Shown: one piece after another, positions 45,629 to 64,000 of the stretch
How the letters are laid out: each line of letters begins with the position of its first letter
Numbering within the stretch: the stretch's first letter is position 1
Assembly (NCBI GenBank): GCA_003854985.1
Contig: RQOG01000006.1
Location: 1-64,000 of the forward strand
DNA from: Calditrichota bacterium
GTDB taxonomy: Bacteria > Calditrichota > Calditrichia > Calditrichales > Calditrichaceae
Reading direction: 5' to 3'
DNA: 64,000 nt
The notes under the pieces: model-generated
Databases searched by the model: none
Seen by the model: the letters and a program-made list of their open reading frames with translations, nothing else
Told to the model about the DNA's origin: nothing
Translations under genes and position numbers: made by a program

Positions 45629-46948
45629 TTGAAACGCTGGCGGCATATTCTTTTCTGGCTGATCGCGGTCATCATCGCGATTCTTGCTTTTTTTCTGTTC
45701 GTGCTCACACCATTGGATGATCAGTTTTCTCTTGGCCGGAGTGTCACGCAAATCTATTATGCGGATAATATTTCCGACGCTCACCAGAAAATGGTAGATG
45801 TCTTTAATCAGGAATATGCCGGAGAAATTGAGGTTATACCCGTTAATCTGCCGTTCAGCAAGTTTACAACAAACGAACGAAAAGAAATTTTAGCCCGCTC
45901 CCTGCGAAGTCAGAGCGAACATATTGATGTGTTTGCTGTGGATTTAATTTGGAGTCCCCGTTTTGCCAAATGGAGCGTTCCTCTTGATGACCATATTGGC
46001 AAAAACGTTTTAGATAATATTCATGAAAAAGCGTTAAAATCCTGTTATTTCAATGAAAAACTAGTGGCCATGCCTTTGTATCTGGATTTTGGCAACCTGT
46101 ATTATCGCAGGGATTTTATCCGCGAATTAAAAAACGGAGAAGAGATTGAACAAAAAATTCTGAACTCCATTACCTGGGAAGAACTGCTGAAATTAGGAGA
46201 AAAATTCCGGAACAAGGATATTCCGGTATATCTTTTTGCCGGCGATAAATTCGAAGGCCTGGTATGTAGTTTTCATGAAATGCTGTCCGACAGCGAAAGC
46301 GCAGAAATGTTTGACGGAGAGCAGGTTAATCTAAATACGCCGGCCGCCCGCAGAGGTCTGCAATTATTAGTTGATTTAATCTATAAATATAAACTAACGC
46401 CGCCCATCGTCACCGAATTTGACGAGTATAACAGTTATATCTATTCCAATATACACGATGCCCTGTTTCTGCGGGGATGGACGGGATTTCATAAACACTA
46501 TTTTAACGTAGTGCCCGATACGTCTAAGCTCAAAAACTTTCTCCTGGCGCCGCTGCCTCATTTTAAGGGGAATACGACTTCCAGTGTTTATGGCGGATGG
46601 AATCTGATGATATCGAAAAATTCGACGAAACAGGATGCGTGTCTGAAATTTTTGAAGTTTGCTTTCAGAAAAGACATTCAGCAGATTCTGTATGCTTTGG
46701 GCGGGTATATTCCCGTTAATAAAGAAGTCTATAATGACCATGAGTATATGGATAAGCATCAGGGATTAGCCTATATTCTAAAATTGTTTGAATGGGGCAG
46801 GCATCGCCCGTATAAGGAAAGCTATACCAAGATATCCGATATCATGTCCATCTACCTGCATAAGGCTCTTAAAAACGAGATGGGCGTTGAAGAAGCTTTA
46901 ATAACGGCATCTCAGGCCATTAATTCCCAGCGGGCATTTATCAAGTAG
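45629..46948 (+). CDS. Membrane-anchored extracellular solute-binding protein (sugar type)
   Basis: A 439-aa protein of the family 1 sugar-binding type (MalE/UgpB-like). Supporting segments are ADNISDAHQKMVDVFNQEY, DVFAVDLIWSPRFAKW, AMPLYLDFGNLYYRRD, DALFLRGWTG and VYGGWNLMISKNS. The N-terminal hydrophobic segment (about 8-29) has no clear lipobox or cleavage site, so it probably stays as a membrane anchor. No ABC permease or ATPase is near. Instead a histidine kinase starts 10 nt later, so I infer that it feeds ligand occupancy to that kinase. The start is TTG with a very strong ribosome binding site (GGGAGGTG). Confidence 0.85.
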   Translation: MKRWRHILFWLIAVIIAILAFFLFVLTPLDDQFSLGRSVTQIYYADNISDAHQKMVDVFNQEYAGEIEVIPVNLPFSKFTTNERKEILARSLRSQSEHIDVFAVDLIWSPRFAKWSVPLDDHIGKNVLDNIHEKALKSCYFNEKLVAMPLYLDFGNLYYRRDFIRELKNGEEIEQKILNSITWEELLKLGEKFRNKDIPVYLFAGDKFEGLVCSFHEMLSDSESAEMFDGEQVNLNTPAARRGLQLLVDLIYKYKLTPPIVTEFDEYNSYIYSNIHDALFLRGWTGFHKHYFNVVPDTSKLKNFLLAPLPHFKGNTTSSVYGGWNLMISKNSTKQDACLKFLKFAFRKDIQQILYALGGYIPVNKEVYNDHEYMDKHQGLAYILKLFEWGRHRPYKESYTKISDIMSIYLHKALKNEMGVEEALITASQAINSQRAFIK

Positions 46949-46958
46949 CGGTTGGATT

Positions 46959-48425
46959 ATGAACTTAAAAAAAACATTCGGTAAAGCTCATTTTCAATGG
47001 AAACATGTCATGGTGTTGTTCATAATCCTGATCGTTTTTCAACTGATCGTTTCCTATATTAATAAAGCATCGCTCGAAAATCTGATGATCGAAACCCAGG
47101 AGTGGTATAAAAGGGAATCCGCCGAACAATTGGCCAATCTGACTACTACTTCAGTTGAACTTATCCTGGAAACCAACAGTCTCAGCCGCACGGATTTTCG
47201 TGAAAATGAACAAACACTTATTCAGGCCTTTAATATTGTTCTTAATCAGCCTCTTCTGCAAAGAAATGTAGAAGATATGTGCGTGCTTCTTTCGTATCAG
47301 AATCAGGTTTATGCGATCGATAACGGAGCGGATTTATTCGAATATTTTTATAATAACCGTTTAACGCTTACCGACAGGATTTCGGCCCATGAACAAGCGG
47401 TTGAAAATTTTATCAAGGTTAAATCCCGTGTTTCAGGCGGAGAGGAGATCGTAAGTGTAAGTGAAGATCAGAAAATATTCCATGTTTACGTGCCGCTGGC
47501 CCCTTATGGCGAATATGTCGGAGCGGTATACCTAAGGGTAAAGCCCGATTTCACCTTCATTACCAATCAGGTTATTGTCAGCTATGAACAGACGGCTATT
47601 ATTTTTTCTGCATTGATACTTTTTGGTCTGATGGCCATGTTTTATATATCGTCCTTTACAATTCGTGAGAGAGACGAAACGCAGCAGCTTCTTTTTAAGG
47701 AAAGAGAAAACTATTTAAAGGACTCCATAAACCGCCAGAAGGAATCGCTTTTTACCAAAAGAATTTATCATACACACCATAAAGCTGAAAAAATTATGGG
47801 TTTTATTAAGGAGGATTTACGTTCGTTATCTAAAGACAACATTGAGGATATTAAATTCAGGACAACTCAGTATGCTAATTTTATATCCCGCGTTATTTAC
47901 GATATGAAATGGTATGATCCTCCTCTACAAACGATAAGAAACCCGTTGTTCAAAACCAATTTAAATAAAGTATTACGATTTATTGTTGATGCTATTTTTC
48001 TGCGGACTTCAAAAGCTGTTCAGGGAATTAATTTTTCAATGGATCTGGATGAGACCATTCCATCTATACAAATCAATGAATTTGTTATCTGGGAAATTAT
48101 TGAGCCTTTAATCCAGAATGCCATCGATCATAGCGGAACGAATAATATTACCATAAGCATAGGGACAAAACACAATGAAGAAGAAAACCGGTCTGTATTG
48201 ACCATTACGGATAATGGTAACGGCATTATCCCGGAATTATTACAGAGCAATGAAGATGGTTTAAAGAAGATGTTTCTCGAGAATATATCCACAAAATCGG
48301 AAGATAAAAATTCGGGCTACGGCTGTTATCTTTCTTATGAAATTGCCAAAAGGTGCGGCTGGACAATGGATGCGGAAAACACGGCTGAAGGCGGCGCGCG
48401 GATTACGTTATATATTCCGCATTAA
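46959..48425 (+). CDS. Sensor histidine kinase paired with the solute-binding protein
   Basis: A 488-aa membrane kinase with transmembrane helices at about 18-36 and 210-231 and a periplasmic domain of about 170 aa between them. A dimerisation helix carries the probable phospho-His in RIYHTHHKAEKIMGF (near 272-275). The ATPase domain has IQNAIDHS, DNGNGI and GYGCYLSYEIAKR as N, G1 and G2 boxes. The H-box is unlike the usual HExxP form. It lies between the solute-binding protein and a sigma-54 response regulator, giving a compact ligand-to-promoter path. Contact between its periplasmic domain and the binding protein is inferred. Confidence 0.87.
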   Translation: MNLKKTFGKAHFQWKHVMVLFIILIVFQLIVSYINKASLENLMIETQEWYKRESAEQLANLTTTSVELILETNSLSRTDFRENEQTLIQAFNIVLNQPLLQRNVEDMCVLLSYQNQVYAIDNGADLFEYFYNNRLTLTDRISAHEQAVENFIKVKSRVSGGEEIVSVSEDQKIFHVYVPLAPYGEYVGAVYLRVKPDFTFITNQVIVSYEQTAIIFSALILFGLMAMFYISSFTIRERDETQQLLFKERENYLKDSINRQKESLFTKRIYHTHHKAEKIMGFIKEDLRSLSKDNIEDIKFRTTQYANFISRVIYDMKWYDPPLQTIRNPLFKTNLNKVLRFIVDAIFLRTSKAVQGINFSMDLDETIPSIQINEFVIWEIIEPLIQNAIDHSGTNNITISIGTKHNEEENRSVLTITDNGNGIIPELLQSNEDGLKKMFLENISTKSEDKNSGYGCYLSYEIAKRCGWTMDAENTAEGGARITLYIPH

Positions 48426-48498: not shown

Positions 48499-49944
48499 AT
48501 GATCTTTTCTAAAAATATAAATTTATTGGTGATAGAAGATGAGGATTATGACGTTCATCGAATAAGGAAAACGATTGAACCGTTTAAAGGACAGATTTTA
48601 ATTCAGGATGTGGTAGCGGATGGCAATGCCGCTTTGGAACTGCTGGAAAAGAAGAAAAGGAAATATGATGTTATCATAATGGATTATCAAATTGTCGGCG
48701 GTCTTTCCGGTGAACGTTTAATTACCAGAATAAAAGAAATATACCCGAGTATTCAGATTATTGTAGTGACCAAAAAAACCGTCAACATATCCGATTTTGA
48801 TTTTGCCAACCGTTTGATCGAAGCGGGAGCAATGTGGTATTGCACCAAATATCCCGGGGATATTGATGAATATATCTACCAGCCTACCGATTTTATTTTA
48901 TCGATCTTCAATGCCTATGAAAAAAAACAATTGGCGGAAGAATCCCTAAAAACTAGTCATAAATTAAAACTTTCCATCGAAGATATTTTAAAAGAAAAAC
49001 AAATAGTCGGCTGCTCTGATACCATCCAAAAAATGCGGATGCAGATAGAAAAGGCGGCTAAACAGGACGCTACGGTTATAATTTACGGGGCTTCCGGAAC
49101 AGGAAAGGAATTAGTCGCTACACATATTCACTATCTCAGTAAACGTAAATTTGAAAAATTTGTGGTTATTAACGGCGGCAGTCTGCCGGACGATTTAATT
49201 GAAAGTGAGTTGTTCGGTTTTGAAAGGGGCTCTTTTACCGGTGCCAATTCCACAAAAGCCGGTTTGTTCGAAGTGGCGGACCATGGCACGATTTTTTTAG
49301 ACGAAGTGGGTGAATTGCCGCCCTCTGCACAGGTTAAGTTATTAAGAGTTCTGCAGGAAGGAGAATTGGACAAAATCGGAAGGATTGATAAAGTTAAAGT
49401 GGATGTACGTATTATTGCCGCAACAAACAGAGATTTACATCAGGCTATTGAAGAAAAATCATTTAGAGAAGATCTTTTTTACCGGTTGAATGTAGTTAAT
49501 ATTCATGTACCTACGCTTAAGGAAAGAAGAGAAGATATTCCCTTGCTGCTCGATTATTTTTTACAGCAATTCTGCCGGAAAATGAACTTTCCTGTTCCCG
49601 AAATCGATAAAAAAGCTTTGGAATATCTTGTACAGTATGACTGGCCCGGAAATGTGCGACAGCTTCAGAATGTAATTCAGCGATTACTCTTTTTGTCTGA
49701 AGGCAAAATAAAACCTGCTGATGTTGAAAATGCATTCGGGCCTAAAAACGCTAAACCGCAAAAAATGACGGAACTATGGGATGAAAATAACCTGCTGCCC
49801 TGGAAAGAAATAGAGAAAGAGATGAAGCGGCGTTATTTTTCCGTTGTCAGGGAAAAATCTAAATCCGATGCCGATGCCGCCAGAATTCTAGGCCTGGCTC
49901 CGCCCAATTTTTACAGAATGTGCAAAGAACTGGGACTGAAATGA
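48499..49944 (+). CDS. Sigma-54-dependent response regulator (NtrC family)
   Basis: A 481-aa protein with the classic three parts. The receiver (about 5-130) has acidic IEDED, phospho-Asp in VIIMDYQ, Thr in VVTKKT and Lys in CTKYPG. The AAA+ domain (about 170-400) has Walker A GASGTGKE, Walker B GTIFLDEVGE and the sigma-54 contact loop GSFTGA (Ser for the usual Ala). The Fis-type helix-turn-helix (about 445-481) reads DADAARILGLAPPNFYRMC. It should activate sigma-54 RNA polymerase at promoters with -24/-12 boxes; two strong matches lie 270 and 1920 nt downstream of its stop. Confidence 0.93.
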   Translation: MIFSKNINLLVIEDEDYDVHRIRKTIEPFKGQILIQDVVADGNAALELLEKKKRKYDVIIMDYQIVGGLSGERLITRIKEIYPSIQIIVVTKKTVNISDFDFANRLIEAGAMWYCTKYPGDIDEYIYQPTDFILSIFNAYEKKQLAEESLKTSHKLKLSIEDILKEKQIVGCSDTIQKMRMQIEKAAKQDATVIIYGASGTGKELVATHIHYLSKRKFEKFVVINGGSLPDDLIESELFGFERGSFTGANSTKAGLFEVADHGTIFLDEVGELPPSAQVKLLRVLQEGELDKIGRIDKVKVDVRIIAATNRDLHQAIEEKSFREDLFYRLNVVNIHVPTLKERREDIPLLLDYFLQQFCRKMNFPVPEIDKKALEYLVQYDWPGNVRQLQNVIQRLLFLSEGKIKPADVENAFGPKNAKPQKMTELWDENNLLPWKEIEKEMKRRYFSVVREKSKSDADAARILGLAPPNFYRMCKELGLK

Positions 49945-50037
49945 AAGTTTTTAAACGTTTATTTACTCTACTCGTTTATCTGTAAATCCCATTGCCCTGT
50001 TTTTATCAGGTCATTTCTTATTATTTTAATAATGTGA

Positions 50038-50212: not shown

Positions 50213-50228
50213 TGGCATATAATATGCT
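50213..50228 (+). promoter_or_regulatory. Sigma-54 (-24/-12) promoter before the symporter
   Basis: TGGCATATAATATGCT has GG at 50214-50215 and GC at 50226-50227 with exactly 10 nt between. It keeps TGGCA and TGC of the consensus, with one change (ATGC for TTGC). Transcription should begin near 50238, about 25 nt before the likely start of translation. Confidence 0.75.
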
Positions 50229-50263
50229 TTTATCTCTAAAAAAATTACGATCACTGGAGAAGG

Positions 50264-51718
50264 ATTACGGGTAATTTTGCTATAGATATTGGTATAATCG
50301 GGCTGTTTATTGCCGTTCTTTTTGGGGCAATCTTTTTTTGGGGTTCACGTGATGATTCGACGACTCATAGTTATTTTTTAGCCGGGCAAAATTCCGGTTG
50401 GATAAAATCCGGTCTCGCAATCTTTAACAGTGGATTTATTAATTATATTGTCGGATTGCTCTTAGCGGGTGTACTTTTTAAGATCGATTTGGTATTAATC
50501 ATCGTTTACTCTTTTTGTTATTTTGTTTGTTTTTATATATATCTGAGATCTCTTAATTCCTTTGATGATAAAAGCAGCAAAATAAAAAAAATATTAGCCG
50601 CAACCGATCAGCGGAAAAAAATAAACAGTATTCTATTTGCCTGGAATTCTGTTATCCGCCTTGTAATTATCATATCTGCTGTCCAGGTTTTTCTGCATCA
50701 GATCATTACTATTAATTTATTTGCGCTTGTAGTATTTGTAACCGTTTTCACAGGATTGTATGTAATTATTGGCGGAATGAATACGGTCATCGCTTCACAA
50801 GCGGTGCAAGGCTTTATTATAGTATTAACGATAGCCACAGGTTTGTTTTTATCGGTCTTTCTGGATTCCGGTAACTATGGGATTTATATCAATGAGGTGT
50901 TTTCTGCCGGTCAGTTTGATATATTATTTCATAAAGTCCTTTATTTTGTCACGCTTGTTTTATTTCTGTTGATTATAAGTATATGGAATTTGGCTGCTGA
51001 TCTAAGCATGGTACAGAAAGTTATAAGCGGTAGAAATTCCGGAAAAAGCGGGTATTTAAATTCGAGTCTTCTGGCCGTAATCCTGCTTTTAATATACATA
51101 GTTACCATGATTATTGCTTATTATAATACCGGATTTAATATGCAGGTTTTGGAAAAAATTTTAATATTAAATAATGGAATATTAGGTTTAATTACCATCT
51201 TGTGTATGTCGTTGATGATGATAGTAATCGCAGACGCTTTGATAGGCAGCGGAACGCTTTTCATATCTCATTTGAACCGAATGCAGGTTGAATTTCACAG
51301 CGAAAACAGAGCCATTTTATCTGGCAGATTAATCATGCTGTTACTGGTGGTTATAACAATGACCCTTGCGCCATTTTATCTTTTACTGTATAAAAATGGT
51401 TTAGTGTATATAGCTATGCTTGTTTTATATATCGGCTGGCCTGCTCTTATTTCAACGCTGATGATAAAACAACAGAAGTTTCAATTGCTTATTGTGGGCG
51501 TTGGTACCATTCTGGTAATAATTAGAATTGCTTTAGAGATTGTTGCCGGTTACCAGAATGAATTTGCCAGGTATATCTATCTGGTAAATCTTTTTGATGT
51601 ACTGTTTCCCTCTTTAGTAGTAATTATTACTTCTCTACTTATTCATAAAACCAGAGAATATAAAACTGCTTCAAAAATTCTTATCGGGCATCAGCCTGCC
51701 GACGGGATTAAAGCCTGA
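50264..51718 (+). CDS. Sodium:solute symporter family protein, no canonical start codon
   Basis: About 484 aa with roughly 12-13 transmembrane helices. SSS features are AIDIGIIGLFIAVLFGAIFF (helix 1), YFLAGQNSGW, GGMNTVIASQAVQGFIIVL and DLSMVQKVISGRN. It imports a sugar or other small solute with sodium. The frame is open from 50236. Helix 1 is coded before any ATG, GTG or TTG; the first of these, TTG at 50456, would remove helix 1 and the conserved YFLAG motif. ATT at 50264, 4 nt after GGAG, is the best-placed start. A sequencing error or frameshift is the alternative. Confidence 0.75.
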   Translation: MTGNFAIDIGIIGLFIAVLFGAIFFWGSRDDSTTHSYFLAGQNSGWIKSGLAIFNSGFINYIVGLLLAGVLFKIDLVLIIVYSFCYFVCFYIYLRSLNSFDDKSSKIKKILAATDQRKKINSILFAWNSVIRLVIIISAVQVFLHQIITINLFALVVFVTVFTGLYVIIGGMNTVIASQAVQGFIIVLTIATGLFLSVFLDSGNYGIYINEVFSAGQFDILFHKVLYFVTLVLFLLIISIWNLAADLSMVQKVISGRNSGKSGYLNSSLLAVILLLIYIVTMIIAYYNTGFNMQVLEKILILNNGILGLITILCMSLMMIVIADALIGSGTLFISHLNRMQVEFHSENRAILSGRLIMLLLVVITMTLAPFYLLLYKNGLVYIAMLVLYIGWPALISTLMIKQQKFQLLIVGVGTILVIIRIALEIVAGYQNEFARYIYLVNLFDVLFPSLVVIITSLLIHKTREYKTASKILIGHQPADGIKA

Positions 51719-51774
51719 TGAGATTAGAAAATCGTGTTCATATTGTCTGAAAATGATTATTAAAATAATAATAT

Positions 51775-51822
51775 GTTATCAAAATAATAATTTGTATTGA
51801 TTGTTTTTATAATAATGATAAC
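51775..51822. promoter_or_regulatory. Paired half-sites GTTATCA ... TGATAAC before the receptor promoter
   Basis: GTTATCA (51775-51781) and its exact complement TGATAAC (51816-51822) lie about 87 and 46 nt before the -24 box. The centre-to-centre distance of 41 nt is near four helical turns. The core matches the inverted repeat at 50038-50056, so both may bind the sigma-54 activator. AT-rich context makes chance matches possible. Confidence 0.4.
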
Positions 51823-51866
51823 TGTCAAGTAAGGAGAATCCCGCATATTAATGCAAATAAAGCCAT

Positions 51867-51882
51867 TGGTATGCAAATTGCA
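51867..51882 (+). promoter_or_regulatory. Sigma-54 (-24/-12) promoter before the TonB-receptor operon
   Basis: TTGGTATGCAAATTGCA has GG at 51868-51869 and GC at 51880-51881, exactly 10 nt apart, with TTGCA intact at -12. The predicted transcription start near 51893 leaves a leader of about 55 nt. Confidence 0.75.
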
Positions 51883-51947: not shown

Positions 51948-54900
51948 ATGATCAAAAATAATTACCGTCTTTTATTAAGCATCTCTCTTCTCCTCCTGAT
52001 ATGTGTGGGGTTTTTACTGGCCGGAACGACGGGGAAAATTTCCGGGCGCATTGTTGACAAGCAGACCGGAGAACCGATCCCCGGAGCTAATGTCATTATT
52101 CCCGGGACATTTTTAGGTGCTGCAACAGATTTGGATGGCTATTATACCATTCTTCGCGTATCGCCAGGTCTTCATATAGTTGAAGCGTCTATGGTGGGAT
52201 ATAAAAAGATAACCATTACCGACGTCCGTGTGCAGATTGATCAAACGGCTACTGTAAACTTTGAATTTGAGTCGGAAATCATGGCGGGAGAAGAAATTGT
52301 TATCGTTGCAGAACGGGATAGGATTAAAGATGATGTTGCCACAAGCGTATCCGCTATTACACCGCAGGAAATAAATGCGCTACCGATGACAGATATTACC
52401 AGCGTAATCAGCCTGGAAGCCGGTATTGAAGACGGACTGGTTATAAGAGGCGCTGACCCGAATCAATCGCTTTTTCAGATTGACGGTATTACCATGCGCG
52501 ATCCCAGAAACAATAAACCCATTACCAGCATAGCTATAAGTGGTATCCAGGAAGTCTCCGTGGAGAGAGGCGGTTTTAATGCGGAATACGGACAGGTTAG
52601 AGCCGGCATTGTTAACACCGTAACCAAAGATGGCAGTAAGGATAAGTATTATCTGAATCTGATTGGGCGTCACAGCCCGCCGACGCCAAAGCATTTTGGT
52701 ATCTCAGTTTACGATCCGAATTCAATGTGGAACAGGCCGTATCTGGATCCCGATGTATGCTGGGTCGGGACCAGGAATGGTGCCTGGGATGAATATACGC
52801 AAAGGCAGTATCCTGATTTTGTAGGTTGGAATGAAATTTCCAAGAAGACATTGGAAGACGGCGATCCGAATAATGATTTAAGTCCTGCGGCCGCCCAAGA
52901 GGTATGGAAATGGGAGAGACGCCGGCAGCCGGTTACGGATGAACCCGATTATAATATCGATATGGGATTTGGCGGTCCCGTTCCGTTGATTGGCGAACAA
53001 CTTGGAGATCTCAGGTTTTTTGCCACCTATAAAAAAGAACGTGAGATGCTGTTAATCCCATTGAGCAGGGACGATTATGTGGATCAGTTCTTCAGCCTGA
53101 AATTTAATTCTGATATTAATAGTAAAATGCGTTTAATGGTATCCGGAATGTATGGGCTGATTAACACAGTAGCGGTAAATGAAGCGGATAAACAGTTTAC
53201 CGGACCAGGCTGGGGAATTTCTGCGGCCGCTGTTCCCTGGAGTCCGACAGAATTTTTACGTTACCCTTTTGATATTGCCAGAATTACTGCGGAGACAAGA
53301 CCGGGGCGTATCTATGGAGACGGCTGGTATTCGGTTTCAGAAATCGGTCATTATGTGTTTGCCGCCAAGTTATCGCATACATTAAGCAGCAGCACCTATT
53401 ATGATGCGCAGATTGAGCATGTTTACCGGGATTATAATACTGGTCCCATCAGAATCAGAGATTATGCAGAAAATTATGAAGTTGTACCCGGATATTATGT
53501 TGATGAAGCGCCATTTGGCTTCAGCCCGGCCATGGATGGCGGTATTACGGGGATGTTTTTTGGCGGCCACACATCCACGGCGCGTGATAAAAGCAAAATA
53601 TCCTCAACAACCTTTAAAGTCGATTTAAATTCACAGTTTAACCGAGAGAATTTATTGAAAGCTGGCGTGGAATTCGTTTATTATAACCTGGGTTTTGATT
53701 TTGGCTATGTTCACGAGGGCTTGAACGATATAAGTTATACCAAAACTTCCAAATTTCCATATCGCGGCGCTTTATACGTTCAGGATAAATTTGAAGCCCT
53801 GGGTTTTATCTTAAATGCCGGCGTGAGACTGGATTTTACAAATTCAAATACCAAATGGATAGAACCGGAAGACATATATGATAAAAATTTTTATTCAGTC
53901 AACTATGATCCTGAGGGCGAGTACCGAATTATAGATTCAAAATTTGATTATTCATTAAGTCCGCGTCTGGGCATTTCCCATCCGATTACAGAAAAGTCAA
54001 AATTATTTTTCAATTACGGGCATTTTAAACAAATGCCGGTGTATGAGGAATTGCTTCGTATCAGCCGGACCGGTTCCGGGCAGATTGCAAATATTGGCGA
54101 TCCTAATTTACTTCAGGCAAAAACGGTGGCCTACGAACTTGGCTATGATCATGTTATTGCAGAAAACTTCCTGTTGCAATTGGCGGCTTATTACAGGGAT
54201 ATAAGCGGGCAGCAGAGTTATACGTCAATTTTAAATCAAAGAGGAGATGTTTCTTACCGAAAAGCTAATAATAATTCTTATGAAGATGTGCGCGGCGCTG
54301 AAATAACGATCCGGAGAAACACAGGACGATGGGTGCGTGGTTTTGTGAATTATACTTACCAGGTGGGAACAAGTGGATTTTTTGGTTTGAACCAGATTTA
54401 TGAAGACCGTTCGGAACAAAATCTATATAACCGTCAGACGGGCAATCAGTATCAAAGAAAACCCACGCCTCAGCCTTATGCCAGATTGGTTTTGACGTTT
54501 TTTACTCCATCCGATTTTGGCCCGGAAGTTGGTTCGATTAACATTTTTAGCGATATATCGCTGAATGTATTAGGCGATTATAAGGCGGGTGAACATCTCA
54601 CGTATAATCCTCTTTCTGCGCCGGGAATTCAAAATAATGTGGAGGTAACGGATTATTATAAATTGGATTTCAGATTTAGCAAAACCTTTGATTTTGATAA
54701 GATCAAGGCGGCTTTTTTTGTGGATTTGTACAATGCCTTGGATTTGAAGAGGCTGTCCGGCGCCAGTTTTTATAGTATCCATGATCAGAACTATTACCTG
54801 GAATCTTTACATCTTCCTGCCAGTCCGGCCTATAAGAATATTCCCGGAGATGACAGGATAGGCGATTACCGGGCGACCGGCGTGGTTTTTCAGCCTATTG

Positions 54901-55133
54901 AACAATTAGGTATGATCGATCCTGCTCAGATGAAAGCGGGGGTAATATATTATTCAGCCGGCAACTATTTCGAACTGGATGATACCGGTTTAAATGCTGT
55001 GCAAGTCAATCACAATAAAATGCAGAAAATACTGGATGATAAAGCCTATATCGATATGCCGAATAATACTTCATTTAGTTTTTTAGATCCCAGACAAATC
55101 TTTTTTGGGATAAAGCTGACATTTGATTTTTAG
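51948..55133 (+). CDS. TonB-dependent receptor, first gene of the sigma-54-driven operon
   Basis: A 1061-aa outer-membrane receptor. A signal peptide (about 1-25) is followed by a carboxypeptidase-regulatory-like domain at about 28-115 (GKISGRIVDKQTGEPIPGAN). The plug lies at about 125-230 (TSVISLEAGIEDGLVIRGAD, FQIDGITMRDP, GGFNAEYGQVRAGIVN). A long barrel ends in FFGIKLTFDF. The plug sequence is of the type common in Calditrichota and Ignavibacteria. There is no SusD gene; the four genes after it probably supply surface partners. Start: CTGGAGAA before the ATG. Confidence 0.9.
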   Translation: MIKNNYRLLLSISLLLLICVGFLLAGTTGKISGRIVDKQTGEPIPGANVIIPGTFLGAATDLDGYYTILRVSPGLHIVEASMVGYKKITITDVRVQIDQTATVNFEFESEIMAGEEIVIVAERDRIKDDVATSVSAITPQEINALPMTDITSVISLEAGIEDGLVIRGADPNQSLFQIDGITMRDPRNNKPITSIAISGIQEVSVERGGFNAEYGQVRAGIVNTVTKDGSKDKYYLNLIGRHSPPTPKHFGISVYDPNSMWNRPYLDPDVCWVGTRNGAWDEYTQRQYPDFVGWNEISKKTLEDGDPNNDLSPAAAQEVWKWERRRQPVTDEPDYNIDMGFGGPVPLIGEQLGDLRFFATYKKEREMLLIPLSRDDYVDQFFSLKFNSDINSKMRLMVSGMYGLINTVAVNEADKQFTGPGWGISAAAVPWSPTEFLRYPFDIARITAETRPGRIYGDGWYSVSEIGHYVFAAKLSHTLSSSTYYDAQIEHVYRDYNTGPIRIRDYAENYEVVPGYYVDEAPFGFSPAMDGGITGMFFGGHTSTARDKSKISSTTFKVDLNSQFNRENLLKAGVEFVYYNLGFDFGYVHEGLNDISYTKTSKFPYRGALYVQDKFEALGFILNAGVRLDFTNSNTKWIEPEDIYDKNFYSVNYDPEGEYRIIDSKFDYSLSPRLGISHPITEKSKLFFNYGHFKQMPVYEELLRISRTGSGQIANIGDPNLLQAKTVAYELGYDHVIAENFLLQLAAYYRDISGQQSYTSILNQRGDVSYRKANNNSYEDVRGAEITIRRNTGRWVRGFVNYTYQVGTSGFFGLNQIYEDRSEQNLYNRQTGNQYQRKPTPQPYARLVLTFFTPSDFGPEVGSINIFSDISLNVLGDYKAGEHLTYNPLSAPGIQNNVEVTDYYKLDFRFSKTFDFDKIKAAFFVDLYNALDLKRLSGASFYSIHDQNYYLESLHLPASPAYKNIPGDDRIGDYRATGVVFQPIEQLGMIDPAQMKAGVIYYSAGNYFELDDTGLNAVQVNHNKMQKILDDKAYIDMPNNTSFSFLDPRQIFFGIKLTFDF

Positions 55134-55154: not shown

Positions 55155-57296
55155 ATGTTAGAAAATAAAAAGTATATTTATCATTATTTATTCTTAGTTC
55201 TTTTATCACTTGCTTTTATATTCCTGGAAACTCAGCCTGTCCAGGCTCAGACTTATGGAAAACATGATATCAAATGGCTTAGCGTTGGTTCTTTGCGCCA
55301 TTGGTTTTCCAGCACAGGGGTTGAAGTTGAATATGGACGGCGTGGCCGGGTCGGAGATTTTCTCGCTACGGATCAAAATGACGGATTGAGATGGCCTGCC
55401 GAGTTTCAGTTACGAGATCATAGTGTGGGTAAGGGATTGTGGATTGGAACAACGGAATATACAAATCCCGTCACAGGTAATTTTTCTGCTTATGAGGTTG
55501 TTCCTCTGGGAAGAGATATTGTTTATTCCGGTAATCATGTTTTCCCGCAAGAGTTTTACCTGATAGCGCGCGAGCCCAGAACCCGTGTATATGTGGATAA
55601 TGCCGGGGCAAGCGATCTTGATGTTTTTGATGAAATCGATGAAATTGATCCGAATATTGACTGCGATCGTCTTTTATATAATGTCGCTCATACGGATATT
55701 GGCATCACAATTAAAAGAAAAATCAAAGCCTACAGTCATCCGGATCATGACAATTATTATATCTATGAATATGTTTTTACGAATACCGGAATTCGGGATG
55801 ATGCGGGAACAACCTATTCTCAAACGCTTACCGATGTCGTGTTCTTTTTCCAGTATCGTTACGGTTTTGCTTATGATCTGTTTCAGTTAGGAAAAGGTTG
55901 CACCGGTGTTAGCTGGGGGTTAAATACCTTAAACGATGTGGTAGGTCAGGATCCAAATGCGCCGGGTTTTGAATTCAGGGCGATATTTGCCTGGTACGGA
56001 TCTCATTCTGAATCAGATGCGGGTTATTTAGGCGATATCGGCGCCCCGGATACAAAAGAAGGACAACTTTTGGGAGGCGCTGATTATGCCGGAACCGTTG
56101 TTATCCATGCCGATCGTTCCGTAAGCGATAAGAGCGATGATGTATATCAGCCTAGTACCACGAATTTTATGGGTTCTGACCGCGATGCACAAAAATGTAC
56201 GCGTGATAAAACGATAATGGCCAATAAATACGGGTATATGACCTTTGGACATCCACTAAAAAATCACGCAGAAGATGTTGGAACCAGTTTTGCTGATAAG
56301 TATGGAGGCGATCCCGGAGGGTATTCATATTCCCAGGGCTTTGGCCCTTATACCATGGCTCCCGGGGATAGTATTCGTATCGTGCTGGCTGAAGGTATTG
56401 ACGGTCTTAGCCGTGAAAAAAATAAAGAAGTGATATACAACTGGTTTAACCAGAACAGTCCTTATACCATGCCGGGTGGTTCATCGACGACAGACGACAG
56501 GAATGAATATAAAAACGCTTATGTTAATTCATGTAAAGATTCTCTTTTCCAGACTTTCCGCCGGGCCATAGATATGCACGAAAACGGTTATGTTGTCAAA
56601 CCACCGCCGGCACCGGAAGAGTTCGCAATCACATCAGGAGGTAATAAAATTTCCATAACATGGACCGGCGTAAATGCGGAAAAATGGTCCAATTTTAATG
56701 GTTACAGATTATACAGAGCCATCGACCGACCGGATACGACTTATGAGTTAATTTTTTCATGCGATAAAAATAATGTAGTCAATTCTTATGATGATAAGAC
56801 GCCGAGAAGAGGGTTTAATTATTACTATTATATTCAGACGGTAGATGACGGCAGTACAAATGATATTAATCCCGGTGTGCCGCTTACAAGCAGTAAATAT
56901 TTAACGATGACCAATCAACCGGCCAGGTTGACCCGCCCGCCCGGAAAATCGCTTAGCGAGATCAGGGTAGTTCCAAATCCGTACAATATCAGAGCCATGA
57001 ACTTACAATTTGGATCCGGAGCAGATGTAAAAGATCAGATTGCTTTCTATAATATACCGGCTTACTGTAAAATCAGGATATTTACGGAGCGGGGTGATCT
57101 GATAAGGACTTTGGAACATACGGATGAAAGCGGCGATGAGCACTGGAATATGCTGACGGATTCCAGACAGGTGGTCGTCAGCGGCCTGTATATCGCTTAT
57201 TTTGAAGTAACTCAGGATTATCCTGATCCTGAAACCGGCATTCTTTTGTATAAAAAGGGTGAGAATACAATTAAAAAATTTGTAATTATTAGATAA
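55155..57296 (+). CDS. Secreted protein with FN3-like and FlgD-like C-terminal domains
   Basis: A 713-aa exported protein with a signal peptide (about 1-31). The first ~480 residues are a beta-rich region I cannot assign; it has Asp/Gly-rich loops (DNAGASDLDVFDEIDEIDPN). A fibronectin type III-like module lies at about 490-590 (PPAPEEFAITSGGNKISITW). The last ~110 residues resemble FlgD-like/T9SS-related domains (EIRVVPNPYNIRA ... IRIFTERGDLIRTL ... NTIKKFVIIR). It follows the receptor by 21 nt with its own site (AGAGAGG). Such proteins often accompany TonB receptors in this group, perhaps as surface ligand binders. Confidence 0.75.
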   Translation: MLENKKYIYHYLFLVLLSLAFIFLETQPVQAQTYGKHDIKWLSVGSLRHWFSSTGVEVEYGRRGRVGDFLATDQNDGLRWPAEFQLRDHSVGKGLWIGTTEYTNPVTGNFSAYEVVPLGRDIVYSGNHVFPQEFYLIAREPRTRVYVDNAGASDLDVFDEIDEIDPNIDCDRLLYNVAHTDIGITIKRKIKAYSHPDHDNYYIYEYVFTNTGIRDDAGTTYSQTLTDVVFFFQYRYGFAYDLFQLGKGCTGVSWGLNTLNDVVGQDPNAPGFEFRAIFAWYGSHSESDAGYLGDIGAPDTKEGQLLGGADYAGTVVIHADRSVSDKSDDVYQPSTTNFMGSDRDAQKCTRDKTIMANKYGYMTFGHPLKNHAEDVGTSFADKYGGDPGGYSYSQGFGPYTMAPGDSIRIVLAEGIDGLSREKNKEVIYNWFNQNSPYTMPGGSSTTDDRNEYKNAYVNSCKDSLFQTFRRAIDMHENGYVVKPPPAPEEFAITSGGNKISITWTGVNAEKWSNFNGYRLYRAIDRPDTTYELIFSCDKNNVVNSYDDKTPRRGFNYYYYIQTVDDGSTNDINPGVPLTSSKYLTMTNQPARLTRPPGKSLSEIRVVPNPYNIRAMNLQFGSGADVKDQIAFYNIPAYCKIRIFTERGDLIRTLEHTDESGDEHWNMLTDSRQVVVSGLYIAYFEVTQDYPDPETGILLYKKGENTIKKFVIIR

Positions 57297-57316
57297 CACA
57301 AATTTTGAGGTTAAAA

Positions 57317-58021
57317 ATGAATTTTAAATTAAGAAAGATGAATGTAACTCTGTTTTTATCCATGCTGTTCATGATGCTAGTGTTAATAAGCTGCGACAGC
57401 ATACTGCCCGATGATTATAAAGAGGAAACATTTTTTATCTCTGCCCTGGACGATAAAGCCTGTCAATTGCTCAGTGATGCTTATGTTTTTGATGTGTCAG
57501 GCGCTATTATTGATTCGAATTTTGTCCGGGTTTCAGCTAAAAAAGTGACGGAAATATATGATACAACCGGTATTGGCGAAAAAGTCACCGAAATATCAAA
57601 ATACATAGATGATTTGGATTTTTTATCGACAAATGCGCTTTATAACAGCCGGTGCCAGGGAGAAAGTCAGCCGGTTGATTTTTATCTTGCCATAAATAAA
57701 AGCGCCGGTATGTCCGGCAGTTTAACTTTTTTTCTCAGTTATGAATTAACGAAAAAAAATAAGAATATAAGTTTCGATATGGCCCTTTATAATGCTGCCG
57801 GCGCGCAGGTCGGATTGAATAATTCAATGCCTGCTGAAACTTATGCTTATTGCAAACAAGTCATTGATACACTGACCAATGAAAGTACATTTAAAATCAG
57901 GGGCAGGTACAGCGCAAGTCTTTCAGACGGCAAATATCTGGTTAAAGTCACTATATCCGAAAGCGCTAAATTGATTTCTGACGCAATAAAAAAACCTGAA
58001 TTCCAGATTGTTGTGCTGTGA
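57317..58021 (+). CDS. Lipoprotein of the receptor operon
   Basis: A 234-aa lipoprotein with signal peptide and lipobox (LVLISCDS). No family is recognised; the body is mixed with several beta segments. I use the ATG at 57317, preceded by GAGG with a 6-nt spacer, and not the TTG 12 nt upstream. It lies 20 nt after the FlgD-tailed gene and 34 nt before the PorV-like gene. Confidence 0.7.
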   Translation: MNFKLRKMNVTLFLSMLFMMLVLISCDSILPDDYKEETFFISALDDKACQLLSDAYVFDVSGAIIDSNFVRVSAKKVTEIYDTTGIGEKVTEISKYIDDLDFLSTNALYNSRCQGESQPVDFYLAINKSAGMSGSLTFFLSYELTKKNKNISFDMALYNAAGAQVGLNNSMPAETYAYCKQVIDTLTNESTFKIRGRYSASLSDGKYLVKVTISESAKLISDAIKKPEFQIVVL

Positions 58022-58055
58022 TATTTTTTATAAAGAAGGTAAGGAGAAAAAAAGC

Positions 58056-59054
58056 GTGAATAAAATTAAATTTGTAATTATTCTTTTGGGAGCCTGCGTT
58101 ATACTATCCAACGGGATATTATATGCACAGGAAATAAAACTGGCCCAAACAGGATTCCAGTTTCTCAGCGTCTCATCGGACGCAAGGGCAAGCGGAATGG
58201 CCGAAGCGGTTAATTCCCGGGAAATCGCTTCATCTTCCATGTTTTTTAATCCGGCTTGTATGGCGACATTGCCCAATATGGTGGAAACCAGCTTTAGTTT
58301 AAATAGTTTTATAGCCGATATCAAATATGTGGCCTTTAGTCTGGCCTACAGGCCTTCTCTCGGCCAATATGGCGTAATAGGATTATCACTGCAATCCGTT
58401 GATTACGGAGACTTAGATCATACCATGATATTCCCAAACACCCAGGGCTTTGTTGATATGGGTACATTTAATCCTTCCGCCTTAGCGATCGGTATTGGCT
58501 ATGCCAAATCTTTATCGGATAAGTTTTCTGTGGGCGGCAATGTGAAGTATGTTTACCAGTATCTGGGGACCAGTGTTATTGAAGAAGGCGTTAATACCTT
58601 AAAGAAAAAGAATATTGCCGATGTGATTGCCTTTGATTTTGGAACTTTATTTGATACGGGTTTCAAGGGTATAAAATTCGGAATGTCGGTCAGGAATTTT
58701 GCCCGCGAGATTAAATATGAAAACGAGAATTTCCAGCTTCCGCTGTTATTTACGTTAGGCGTTTCAACAGATTTAAATAACTTAATCGAACTGGACAAAG
58801 AAATGCATTCGCTAATTGCTTCTGTTGACCTTACACATCCCCGGGCGCATGCGGAACAGTTAAAAATAGGATTTGATTATACCTTGATGAACATGTTGTC
58901 GCTTAGAACCGGATATACGCTGAACAACGATGAAGACGGTCTTACTTTCGGTGTAGGCGTCTCTAAATTTGGCATTGAGTTTGACTATGCTTATGCGCCT
59001 TTTGGAATTTTTGATAATGTACAAAGAATTACCGGCCGTATCGCCATAAAGTAA
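58056..59054 (+). CDS. PorV/PorQ-family outer-membrane beta-barrel protein
   Basis: A 332-aa protein with a signal peptide (about 1-24). The N-terminal motif LAQTGFQFLSVSSDARASGMAEA and FFNPACMA are typical of PorV/PorQ (UPF0164) proteins. The rest is an FadL-like barrel of amphipathic strands. PorV is the shuttle of T9SS that moves cargo to the attachment complex; paralogues inside transport operons are common in this group and may instead serve as channels. Start is GTG at 58056 with AAGGAG before it. Confidence 0.8.
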   Translation: MNKIKFVIILLGACVILSNGILYAQEIKLAQTGFQFLSVSSDARASGMAEAVNSREIASSSMFFNPACMATLPNMVETSFSLNSFIADIKYVAFSLAYRPSLGQYGVIGLSLQSVDYGDLDHTMIFPNTQGFVDMGTFNPSALAIGIGYAKSLSDKFSVGGNVKYVYQYLGTSVIEEGVNTLKKKNIADVIAFDFGTLFDTGFKGIKFGMSVRNFAREIKYENENFQLPLLFTLGVSTDLNNLIELDKEMHSLIASVDLTHPRAHAEQLKIGFDYTLMNMLSLRTGYTLNNDEDGLTFGVGVSKFGIEFDYAYAPFGIFDNVQRITGRIAIK

Positions 59055-59069
59055 GACGAGGATATGATT

Positions 59070-60335
59070 ATGATAAAAAAGTTATCGAACACGTATGCAA
59101 AAAGAATCATCTTAGGTATTTTACTGATCGTTTCTTTTGCTTGTAATGAATTTGAGGATATTCCTAAAATATATGATCCTGATAATAAGGATGCCGTGAA
59201 AGACCCTGTAATTCGCGCAGTTGAACCGGCCGATAGTATTATTGCCGGTATACGTACTGTTATAATCGATGGTGAAAATTTCTCAATTAACCCGGATTCA
59301 GTAGCCGTTTATTTTGATAATTATAGAAGCGTTATAAGCAGTTTTGGCCCTAACCAAATTATTGTTCATCGTCCTGCAATTGCCGGAGATTTAATCACTC
59401 TAAAAGTGATGATCTATGGAGCGTTGGGAATTGCCAGGTATCCTGATTTATATATACAGGAAGCATGGACCAATTATGCAGATTTTACCAGCGTGAATAA
59501 CCTGTTATACACCATAGATATGGATAAAGATGAAAACATGTATGTGGCGATAAGAAGGGCTATTTACAAGGTGAATCCTTTCGGAGAAATAGAAACATCA
59601 TGGTCTACTAACCAGGATCGGCCTTACGATATAAAAGCAGGTCCGGATAACTACCTTTATTTTGTGGCCAATCGAAGAGATTTATACCGTTTAAGCACGG
59701 TAACAGGGGCGCAGGAAACATTCGCTGCTCTCGGGCAAACGGCCATTGTGCTGGATTTTGATCAGAATCTGAATATCTACACAGGCAAAAGGGATATTAT
59801 TGTGCTTGTTAAACCAGACCGGTCCGTTCGGGAAGTCGGCGCAAGTTATAACGATTATGACTTTATTGACTTTAAAGTGTATAACGGATATTTGTATGTT
59901 GCCGCCAGCTATGGCGGTCGCGACGCCGCTGTGCCGGATATGGGCGTATGGAAAAGCGCCATTGATAACGAAACCGGCGATTTAGCTGGAAACGAGCTAG
60001 TGGTGGACTGGGCAAATTCCGAATATGGCCAGCAGATCGGCACCGTGACACCAACCATATCTTCCATGGCGATTTCTGAAGACGGCGATATTCTGTTGAG
60101 TTCAAACGATCATCCGCAATACTCATTATTTATATATGATGAAACTCAAAGTCTTCTGCCTTTTTATGGAGATACGACTATTATGAAGGATGTTCCTAAA
60201 GCAGATGAGATCGTGTGGGGAAGTAGTAAATCACTCTATATTAATCGCAGCAATTCAATGACTGCTGGTAAAGATTCCACTATTCTGAAATTAGGTATTG
60301 GTGAAAATGGGGCAGATTATTACGGCCGGCAATAA
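59070..60335 (+). CDS. IPT/TIG-domain lipoprotein with beta-propeller-like repeats
   Basis: A 421-aa lipoprotein (lipobox VSFACNE). An IPT/TIG immunoglobulin-like domain lies at about 45-130 (PVIRAVEPADSIIAGIRTVIIDGENFS). The remainder looks like an NHL-type propeller: LLYTIDMDKDENMYVAIRRA, YDIKAGPDNYLYFVAN, VLDFDQNLNIYTG and SMAISEDGDILLSSND. In Bacteroidetes sugar loci such TIG lipoproteins (SusE/F-like in position) bind glycan at the cell surface. I prefer the second ATG, 8 nt after GAGG. Last gene of the receptor operon. Confidence 0.75.
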   Translation: MIKKLSNTYAKRIILGILLIVSFACNEFEDIPKIYDPDNKDAVKDPVIRAVEPADSIIAGIRTVIIDGENFSINPDSVAVYFDNYRSVISSFGPNQIIVHRPAIAGDLITLKVMIYGALGIARYPDLYIQEAWTNYADFTSVNNLLYTIDMDKDENMYVAIRRAIYKVNPFGEIETSWSTNQDRPYDIKAGPDNYLYFVANRRDLYRLSTVTGAQETFAALGQTAIVLDFDQNLNIYTGKRDIIVLVKPDRSVREVGASYNDYDFIDFKVYNGYLYVAASYGGRDAAVPDMGVWKSAIDNETGDLAGNELVVDWANSEYGQQIGTVTPTISSMAISEDGDILLSSNDHPQYSLFIYDETQSLLPFYGDTTIMKDVPKADEIVWGSSKSLYINRSNSMTAGKDSTILKLGIGENGADYYGRQ

Positions 60336-62350: not shown

Positions 62351-64000
62351 GTGGAAATACATAGTATCGATCTTGGGATTATAATACTCTACATTTTGGC
62401 GACGATTTTTATCGGATTCTATATATCGAAAAGAGCCTCAAAAAATCTGGATTCTTACTTTCTTGGAGACAAAAGCATGCCCTGGTATGTTTTAGGCATT
62501 TCCAATGCTTCCGGAATGTTTGACATTACTGGAACAATGTGGCTGGTTTATCTCTGTTTCGTTTATGGAATGAAAAGCGCCTGGATACCATGGGTATGGC
62601 CGACCTTTAACCAGATATTTTTAATGGTCTATCTTTCCATCTGGCTGAGACGTTCCAATGTTTTAACCGGTGCGGAATGGATTACTTTCAGGTTTGGAGA
62701 TGGTAAGGGCGGAAAACTTGCCCATATCAGCGTGGTTCTTTTTGCATTGGTTAGTGTGATCGGTTTTTTAGCTTATGCTTTTGAAGGTATAGGAAAATTT
62801 ACCACCACATTTTTGCCATGGGACTTATCGGCCAATACCTATGCGCTGATCTTTATGGGCATCACTACCATTTATGTGGTTTCCGGAGGTATGTTCAGTG
62901 TGGTTTTTACGGAAGTGCTTCAGTTTACAATCATGACCATCGCTTCAATCGCCGTTGGTATTATTGCCATGAGCAAAGTATCCCCCGAGATGCTTGCCAA
63001 AGTTATTCCAGAGGGCTGGAAAAACATTTTCTTTGGCTGGGAATTAAATCTTGACTGGTCGCGAATTATGAATTCTGTGAATGATAAAATTTTTACCGAT
63101 GAATATTCTCTATTCACCATATTTTTTATGATGGTTTTGTTTAAAGGCATACTGGTCAGCGTTGCAGGCCCGGCGCCTAACTATGATATGCAAAGAATTT
63201 TAGCTACCCGTAATCCCCGGGAAGCTGGATTAATGAGCGCATTTGTTAATGTGGCTCTAATTTTTCCACGTTACTTTTTAATTACGGGATTAACCGTATT
63301 AGCGCTGGTATTCTTTAGTCCTCAGCTTAATGCTATGGGCGCAGATATTGATTTTGAAATGGTCCTGCCCTATGCTATAAAGAATTTTATGCCTGTTGGT
63401 TTAATGGGCATTTTATTAGCTGGATTAATTTCCGCTTTTATGTCCACTTTCGCGGCTACGGTTAATGCTGCGCCAGCTTATATTGTAAACGATATTTATA
63501 AGAAATACATAAATCCGGGCGCCTCAAATAAAAAATATGTAAAAATGAGTTATCTGGCGTCTATTGCGGTTGTTGCGATTGGCATTGGCTTCGGGTTTAT
63601 CGTCGAATCGATTAATGATATTACCTTGTGGATCGTATCTTCCCTTTGGGGCGGATATGCTGCAGCCAATGTCCTGAAGTGGCATTGGTGGCGGTTCAAT
63701 GGGTTTGGTTATTTTTGGGGGATGATCTCAGGCCTGGCGGCTTCGCTCGCCATACCTAAAATATTACCATCATATACTGCGCTGGAAGGATTTCCGATTA
63801 TTCTGATCATATCTTTAATCGGATGTTTTCTGGCTACTCTGCTGACCAAACCTGATGATATGGATGTGCTGAAAGCCTTTTATCAACGGGTGCGTCCCTG
63901 GGGATTCTGGAAACCTGTTCACGATCTGCTACTGGTCGATAATCCGGAATTTAAAAGAAACAAGAATTTTCGCAGAGACTGCTTTAATGTTTTTATTGGT
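62351..64000 (+). CDS. Sodium:solute symporter, 3' end beyond the window
   Basis: An open frame of 550 codons from GTG 62351 that runs off the window. It is a typical SSS/SLC5 transporter: helix 1 LGIIILYILATIFIGFYIS, then SYFLGDKSMPWYVLGISNAS, EWITFRFGDG, VVSGGMFSVVFTEVLQF and GPAPNYDMQRILATRNPREA. The last residues visible (FRRDCFNVFIG) match the conserved C-terminal segment of bacterial sugar symporters, so only a few tens of residues should be missing. It is not closely related to the symporter at 50264. The gap before it shows no sigma-54 promoter. Confidence 0.9.
   Translation, partial: MEIHSIDLGIIILYILATIFIGFYISKRASKNLDSYFLGDKSMPWYVLGISNASGMFDITGTMWLVYLCFVYGMKSAWIPWVWPTFNQIFLMVYLSIWLRRSNVLTGAEWITFRFGDGKGGKLAHISVVLFALVSVIGFLAYAFEGIGKFTTTFLPWDLSANTYALIFMGITTIYVVSGGMFSVVFTEVLQFTIMTIASIAVGIIAMSKVSPEMLAKVIPEGWKNIFFGWELNLDWSRIMNSVNDKIFTDEYSLFTIFFMMVLFKGILVSVAGPAPNYDMQRILATRNPREAGLMSAFVNVALIFPRYFLITGLTVLALVFFSPQLNAMGADIDFEMVLPYAIKNFMPVGLMGILLAGLISAFMSTFAATVNAAPAYIVNDIYKKYINPGASNKKYVKMSYLASIAVVAIGIGFGFIVESINDITLWIVSSLWGGYAAANVLKWHWWRFNGFGYFWGMISGLAASLAIPKILPSYTALEGFPIILIISLIGCFLATLLTKPDDMDVLKAFYQRVRPWGFWKPVHDLLLVDNPEFKRNKNFRRDCFNVFIG

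Follow-up and report, generated by a model that had tools for sequence, protein, structure and literature searches.

Two probable sigma-54 promoters and predicted tandem enhancer palindromes beside a putative carbohydrate-sensing three-component system in a Calditrichota bacterium

Two-component activators of the NtrC/DctD type act on sigma-54 promoters, as exemplified by DctB/DctD, which drives the transporter gene dctA. The locus described here lies in a 64,000-nucleotide stretch of a Calditrichota genome, C143:1-64000, hereafter the window. It shares with these systems a regulator of receiver-AAA+-Fis type, paired palindromic upstream sites and a -24/-12 promoter in front of a transport gene. 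In contrast to the NtrC/DctD type, the cluster includes a gene for a sugar-binding protein and has an enhancer motif of its own (TTATYA-N3-TRATAA), and the predicted targets are sodium:solute symporters (SSS), TonB receptors and glycoside hydrolases (GH). In the comparison with NtrC/DctD-type activators, NCBIfam equivalog cut-offs were not reached.

A second related system is CuaDSR of Ruminiclostridium cellulolyticum, a three-component system in which the binding protein binds the sensor (PMC10384115). Both CuaDSR and the window feature neighbouring genes for a solute-binding protein, a histidine kinase and a response regulator, with a role in controlling sugar uptake that is predicted for the window. 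However, where the window regulator has a sigma-54 activator domain, CuaR has an AraC-type HTH domain; the binding protein CuaD is a lipoprotein, and CuaDSR acts on an ABC transporter (PMC10384115). Comparative genomics has yielded sigma-54 regulons for Desulfovibrio (PMC4641369) and for Clostridiales (PMC6615313), and these also feature activator-specific inverted-repeat enhancers beside -24/-12 sites, although in other phyla and with other targets. The -12 element is tTGCt in Desulfovibrio (PMC4641369), whereas T or A is common at -12 in the genome analysed here. In the literature searched, nothing relevant turned up on sigma-54 in Calditrichaeota/Calditrichota or on its connection with TonB, symporters or PULs, and as far as this literature shows, the regulon around the two promoters is undescribed. 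The promoters themselves are ordinary in mechanism. The locus provides a well-defined sigma-54 regulon (activator, enhancer motif and targets) for a phylum for which none was found in that literature, and would couple sensing by a sugar-binding protein to sigma-54 control of sugar uptake across both the outer and the inner membrane.

The sensor-regulator genes are as follows:

45629-46948, + strand: sugar-type solute-binding protein, the proposed co-sensor (PF01547/PF13416), with a membrane anchor predicted at its N-terminus from the sequence
46959-48425, + strand: membrane sensor histidine kinase (HATPase_c)
48499-49944, + strand: response regulator and sigma-54 enhancer-binding protein (PF00072; PF00158, 1e-66; PF25601)

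The solved structures nearest to the 45629 protein are trehalose/maltose-binding proteins, and no ABC permease gene adjoins its gene. The 48499 regulator is composed of a receiver, an AAA+ domain with a GSFTGA loop and a Fis-type recognition helix. Conservation of the GASGTGKE, LDE and GSFTGA motifs and of D62 identifies it as an NtrC-type activator (bEBP); the Fis-type helix, not reported by Pfam as HTH_8, is readable and conserved, as is the C-terminal sequence APPN(Y/F)(Y/H)RMCKELG among orthologues. Since the best match in an orthologue search for the symporter-like gene downstream was only 27% identical, the comparison with relatives was moved to the regulator. Regulator orthologues, 57-68% identical, occur in 20 of the 40 Calditrichia genomes searched and are clearly separate from paralogues (about 41%). 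The named records of the closest ones are Calditrichaceae, Caldithrix, Calditrichia and KSB1 metagenome genomes. Kinase orthologues (49-61% identical) directly precede the regulator in relatives, and for the binding protein the trio is conserved at 43-51%. The order binding protein-kinase-regulator is the same in most relatives whose contig extends far enough to show it, one locus (L192) being an exception, and the genes located 3' of the trio vary. The three genes are conserved together, as expected of a three-component system with a solute-binding protein. A 62% identical regulator (L227), accompanied only by weak palindromes, was found in a record titled Ignavibacteria bacterium GWC2_36_12, and may reflect either horizontal transfer or a misnamed record.

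The predicted control sites map to the gaps downstream of the regulator gene (palindromes carry no strand):

50018-50032: predicted enhancer palindrome 1a, TTATTATTTTAATAA, an exact match to TTATYA-N3-TRATAA
50040-50054: predicted enhancer palindrome 1b, TTATCAGAATGATAA, an exact match, 22 bp after 1a
50213-50228, + strand: sigma-54 promoter 1, TGGCATATAATATGCT, GG-N10-GC, predicted transcription start at about 50239
51757-51771: predicted enhancer palindrome 2a, TTATTAAAATAATAA, an exact match to TTATYA-N3-TRATAA
51776-51790: predicted enhancer palindrome 2b, TTATCAAAATAATAA, an exact match, 19 bp after 2a
51807-51821: possible third, weaker enhancer site, TTATAATAATGATAA, with one mismatch
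51867-51882, + strand: sigma-54 promoter 2, TGGTATGCAAATTGCA, GG-N10-GC, predicted transcription start at about 51893

An earlier note on this DNA had reported the two GG-N10-GC sites, the second as TTGGTATGCAAATTGCA, and had judged them to be at sensible distances from the genes that follow. Both were found again on the + strand, TTGGTATGCAAATTGCA at 51866-51882, and their -12 elements are separated from the start codons by 38 nt (promoter 1) and 65 nt (promoter 2). By themselves, the -24/-12 matches are no better than chance. The pattern TGGYRYN6TGCW has two matches in the 64 kb, which are the two sites, versus 1.35 expected in shuffles, and the motif alone was rejected as evidence. The promoters rise above chance because of their position and context, not because of the bare motif. 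A relaxed sigma-54 pattern, scanned over the 250 nt before each of the 38 ORFs of at least 120 aa in the window, matched intergenic sequence at the two sites only. The scan agrees with the earlier statement that no comparable match precedes 590, 45629 or 60514, and a stricter scan extends the agreement to the separate canonical SSF gene starting at 62351, as it gives none between 62133 and that start.

The palindromes, unlike the promoter motif, exceed chance on their own: the exact sequence TTATYA-N3-TRATAA occurs four times in the 64-kb window against 0.15 expected, and none of 100 shuffles reaches four. All four copies are in the two gaps under study, one tandem pair before each promoter, and a relaxed tandem search of the whole assembly (4.06 Mb, 180 contigs) found the pair only in these two places. 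Single palindromes occur in 22 places, versus 12 for the reversed control, and were treated as chance; those on contigs C169, C161, C14, C56, C92 and C105 have no sigma-54 site nearby. The enhancer pair lies 158 bp from promoter 1, a spacing resembling that of a relative's locus (L193, 160 bp), and 76 bp from promoter 2, a spacing that falls in the commonest class among relatives (73-77 bp).

The earlier note had made its proposal depend on the presence of rpoN, and a profile search located the gene (PF04552, 1.8e-59, contig C44). In the assembly, rpoN is split over two contig ends (G000:C44:1-1069 and an N-terminal piece at C160:1-62), and may therefore look truncated in annotation.

We propose, with a probability of about 0.88, that a carbohydrate-sensing three-component system drives both sigma-54 promoters, and with them the symporter-like gene and the TonB-receptor operon. 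This reading draws on features present in the sequence, namely the genes, rpoN, the -24/-12 sites, the tandem palindromes, their joint conservation and their co-occurrence with the regulator. Binding of the regulator to these palindromes, phosphorylation, looping and the nature of the ligand are steps that we infer. The membrane-anchored sugar-binding protein 45629 would present the ligand to histidine kinase 46959, which would phosphorylate response regulator 48499. The regulator would bind both enhancer pairs (TTATYA-N3-TRATAA; 50018/50040 and 51757/51776) as dimers, form a hexamer and loop to RNA polymerase-sigma-54 at 50213 and 51867. ATP hydrolysis by the regulator would open both promoters and induce the symporter-like gene and the receptor operon. 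The earlier proposal of two sigma-54 promoters downstream of their activator is supported by the activator domains, by rpoN, by the tandem palindromes shared by the two gaps and by conservation in relatives. The grounds are stronger than those originally available: the enhancers, the sugar-binding protein, the kinase and the weakness of GG-N10-GC as a test were all missing from that reading.

The predicted targets are the following:

50267-51718, + strand: sodium:solute-symporter-like protein, with a probable ACG start and a Shine-Dalgarno GGAG at 50256
51948-55133, + strand: TonB-dependent outer-membrane receptor with a carboxypeptidase-like domain (PF13715, PF07715, PF14905)
55155-60335, + strand: four closely spaced genes (55155, 57305, the PorV-like 58008/58050 and the TIG-domain 59064)

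The most likely start codon of the symporter-like gene is ACG 50267, not TTG 50456 as given by the ORF finder. The frame is open from this ACG, which is preceded seven bases upstream by GGAG, and is intact over 484 codons. The N-terminus read from 50267 aligns with the symporters of relatives, which begin with ATG or GTG at about that point. The product has no Pfam or NCBIfam family match; it lacks both the match to PF00474 and the SSEH-type motif in TM1 expected of a sodium:solute symporter, and is only 22-27% identical to true SSS proteins. In TM1, the motif NISSEHFIGLAG, which is kept by the enhancer-linked symporters of relatives, is replaced by NSGFINYIVGLLLAG. The gene may encode a transporter that has diverged, or a relative that does not transport. 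Its SSS motif is eroded, although its promoter and enhancers are intact.

The ACG start and the lost SSS motif suggest an alternative in which promoter 2 alone is active and promoter 1 is a relic. The lack of any family match for the 50267 product and the long enhancer-promoter distance (158 bp versus the usual 51-77 bp) are consistent with this alternative, but it is rather unlikely, as the frame is undisrupted and the enhancer pair, the promoter, the ribosome site and the spacing to the start have all been kept. Moreover, the 160-bp spacing at L193 is used before a GH16 gene.

The TonB-receptor gene, beginning with ATG, is the first of the second unit, and the genes at 55155-60335 are probably the rest of a receptor operon, as suggested by their common strand and short gaps. 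In most relatives, the tandem palindrome precedes a sodium:solute symporter or a glycoside hydrolase. The regulated position is taken by GH16 in several genomes, and by GH3, GH5 or FBPase, or SSS symporters in others. Because GH16, GH3 and GH5 genes occur at the same position, our guess is that the ligand may consist of beta-glucan fragments.

The shared palindrome was seen in the gaps behind orthologous regulators, mostly as tandem pairs 19-24 bp apart. A search for a relaxed tandem pattern in 40 genomes gave 14 positives, compared with 0/40 for the reversed control. All positives belong to the genomes with a regulator orthologue (14/20 versus 0/20 without; Fisher p 3e-6). As the palindrome had been recognised beside regulator genes, matches there are partly circular. 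This does not apply to at least nine further tandem matches (for instance, G001:C135, G009:C184, G028:C157, G029:C1:2903314, G031:C274, G032:C345, G034:C59 and G038:C538), which lie away from the regulator, on their own contigs or at distant loci, and mostly just upstream of independently found symporters. Four regulator loci (L184, L185, L188 and L191) have no clear enhancer pair beside the regulator.

A sigma-54 site, TGGYRY-N6-TGY, lies within 20-220 bp of 24 of the 33 non-redundant tandem enhancers, compared with 0.7 expected in shuffles; the TGY pattern was chosen after some sites had been seen, and the 33 enhancers, some of which come from related genomes, are not fully independent. Several of the nine pairs lacking a site by this pattern have a TTGA version. 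Enhancer-to-site distances are 51-52, 60-63, 73-77, 158-160 and, once, 196 bp, and the -12 element is mostly 31-50 nt from the start codon. Helical phasing of the distance classes near 52, 62, 75 and 159 bp is not claimed, because the statistics are modest and the loci related. A matrix scan of the gaps around orthologous regulators revealed eight sites of at least 12 bits, versus 0.9 expected and one on the antisense strand; the matrix, whose frequencies are our approximation of the published consensus, was fixed before the palindrome was noticed. The comparison in relatives recommended by the earlier note thus finds regulator, tandem palindrome and -24/-12 site conserved together, and the putative activator-binding palindromes upstream are, by sequence, conserved with the promoter. 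Degenerate tandem palindromes with TTGA-type sigma-54 sites were also observed before another gene near a symporter in two relatives of one genus (L262, 10172-10207; L263, 9653-9688).

These data bear on a second alternative, which explains the -24/-12 matches by chance, assigns the palindromes to some other regulator (a repressor, for example) and has transcription begin at sigma-70-type promoters within the gaps. The -24/-12 pattern alone is indeed at chance level, the AT-rich gaps hold sigma-70-like matches, and site 1 contains TATAAT. However, the sigma-70-like matches are no more, or scarcely more, numerous than in shuffled sequence, and the TATAAT at 50218 is part of none of them, while in relatives sigma-54 sites go together with the tandem palindrome (24/33 versus 0.7 expected) and the palindrome tracks the presence of a 48499 orthologue, which makes this alternative very improbable. 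A third alternative, in which the trio controls something else and another sigma-54 activator of the genome binds the palindromes, is hardly credible: other activators exist, as the genome has about 17 strong PF00158 matches, but the tandem palindrome is absent from 20/20 relatives that lack the orthologue and have many other activators, most loci have it beside the regulator gene, and its conservation goes along with that of the recognition helix.

The base at -12 also deserves attention. In stretches of the window's own genome, TGGCAY-N5-TTG was counted 10 times in upstream non-coding DNA (35.7 kb) versus twice in the coding strand (844 kb). Among the 10 upstream cases, the base that follows is A (5), T (4) or C (1). 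In a genome-wide sample taken in contig order, intergenic sites upstream of a gene have T in 5 cases, A in 4, C in 3 and G in none. The stretches with mostly T or A, and rarely C, at -12 are L103-L122, L254-L258 and L264-L290. Since T or A occupies this position in many sigma-54 promoters of the genome, GG-N10-GC discriminates poorly here. Outside the regulon, sites in relatives were too few for -12 statistics.

The RpoN sequences of the genome and its relatives (L291-L320 and L337-L340) differ at a residue relevant to this element. Genetic data implicate E378 of sigma-54 in recognition of the -12 GC (PMC4496707), and promoter DNA reacts with a crosslinker positioned at this residue (PMC5505868). 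In nearly all Calditrichia RpoN proteins, Ile takes its place: in a set of 30 proteins and in four further Calditrichia ones, the recognition helix reads DISTVSR instead of HESTVSR, with a single DNSTISR among them. Outside the class, E occupies the position in 10 of 13 readable genomes (Fisher 7e-8, uncorrected for relatedness). We lean slightly towards the view that Calditrichia sigma-54 has changed its -12 specificity, with Ile for E378 and promoters of the form TGGCAY-N5-TTG followed by T, A or C, and that the three-component regulon is one built on such promoters; the Ile residue and the -12 base usage may be linked. If C at -12 is not obligatory, standard GG-N10-GC searches would miss most Calditrichia sigma-54 promoters. 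The -12 pattern, should it hold, would connect a natural substitution in a DNA-reading residue of sigma-54 with a shift in promoter sequence, and would correct promoter prediction in the phylum.

A further strong sigma-54 site, TGGCATATAGTTTGCA, is present elsewhere in the genome (L110, 6159; G000:C126:23158), some 0.6 kb past the AAA+ domain of another sigma-54 activator. The layout of this site and its neighbouring activator is the same as at the promoters of the window.
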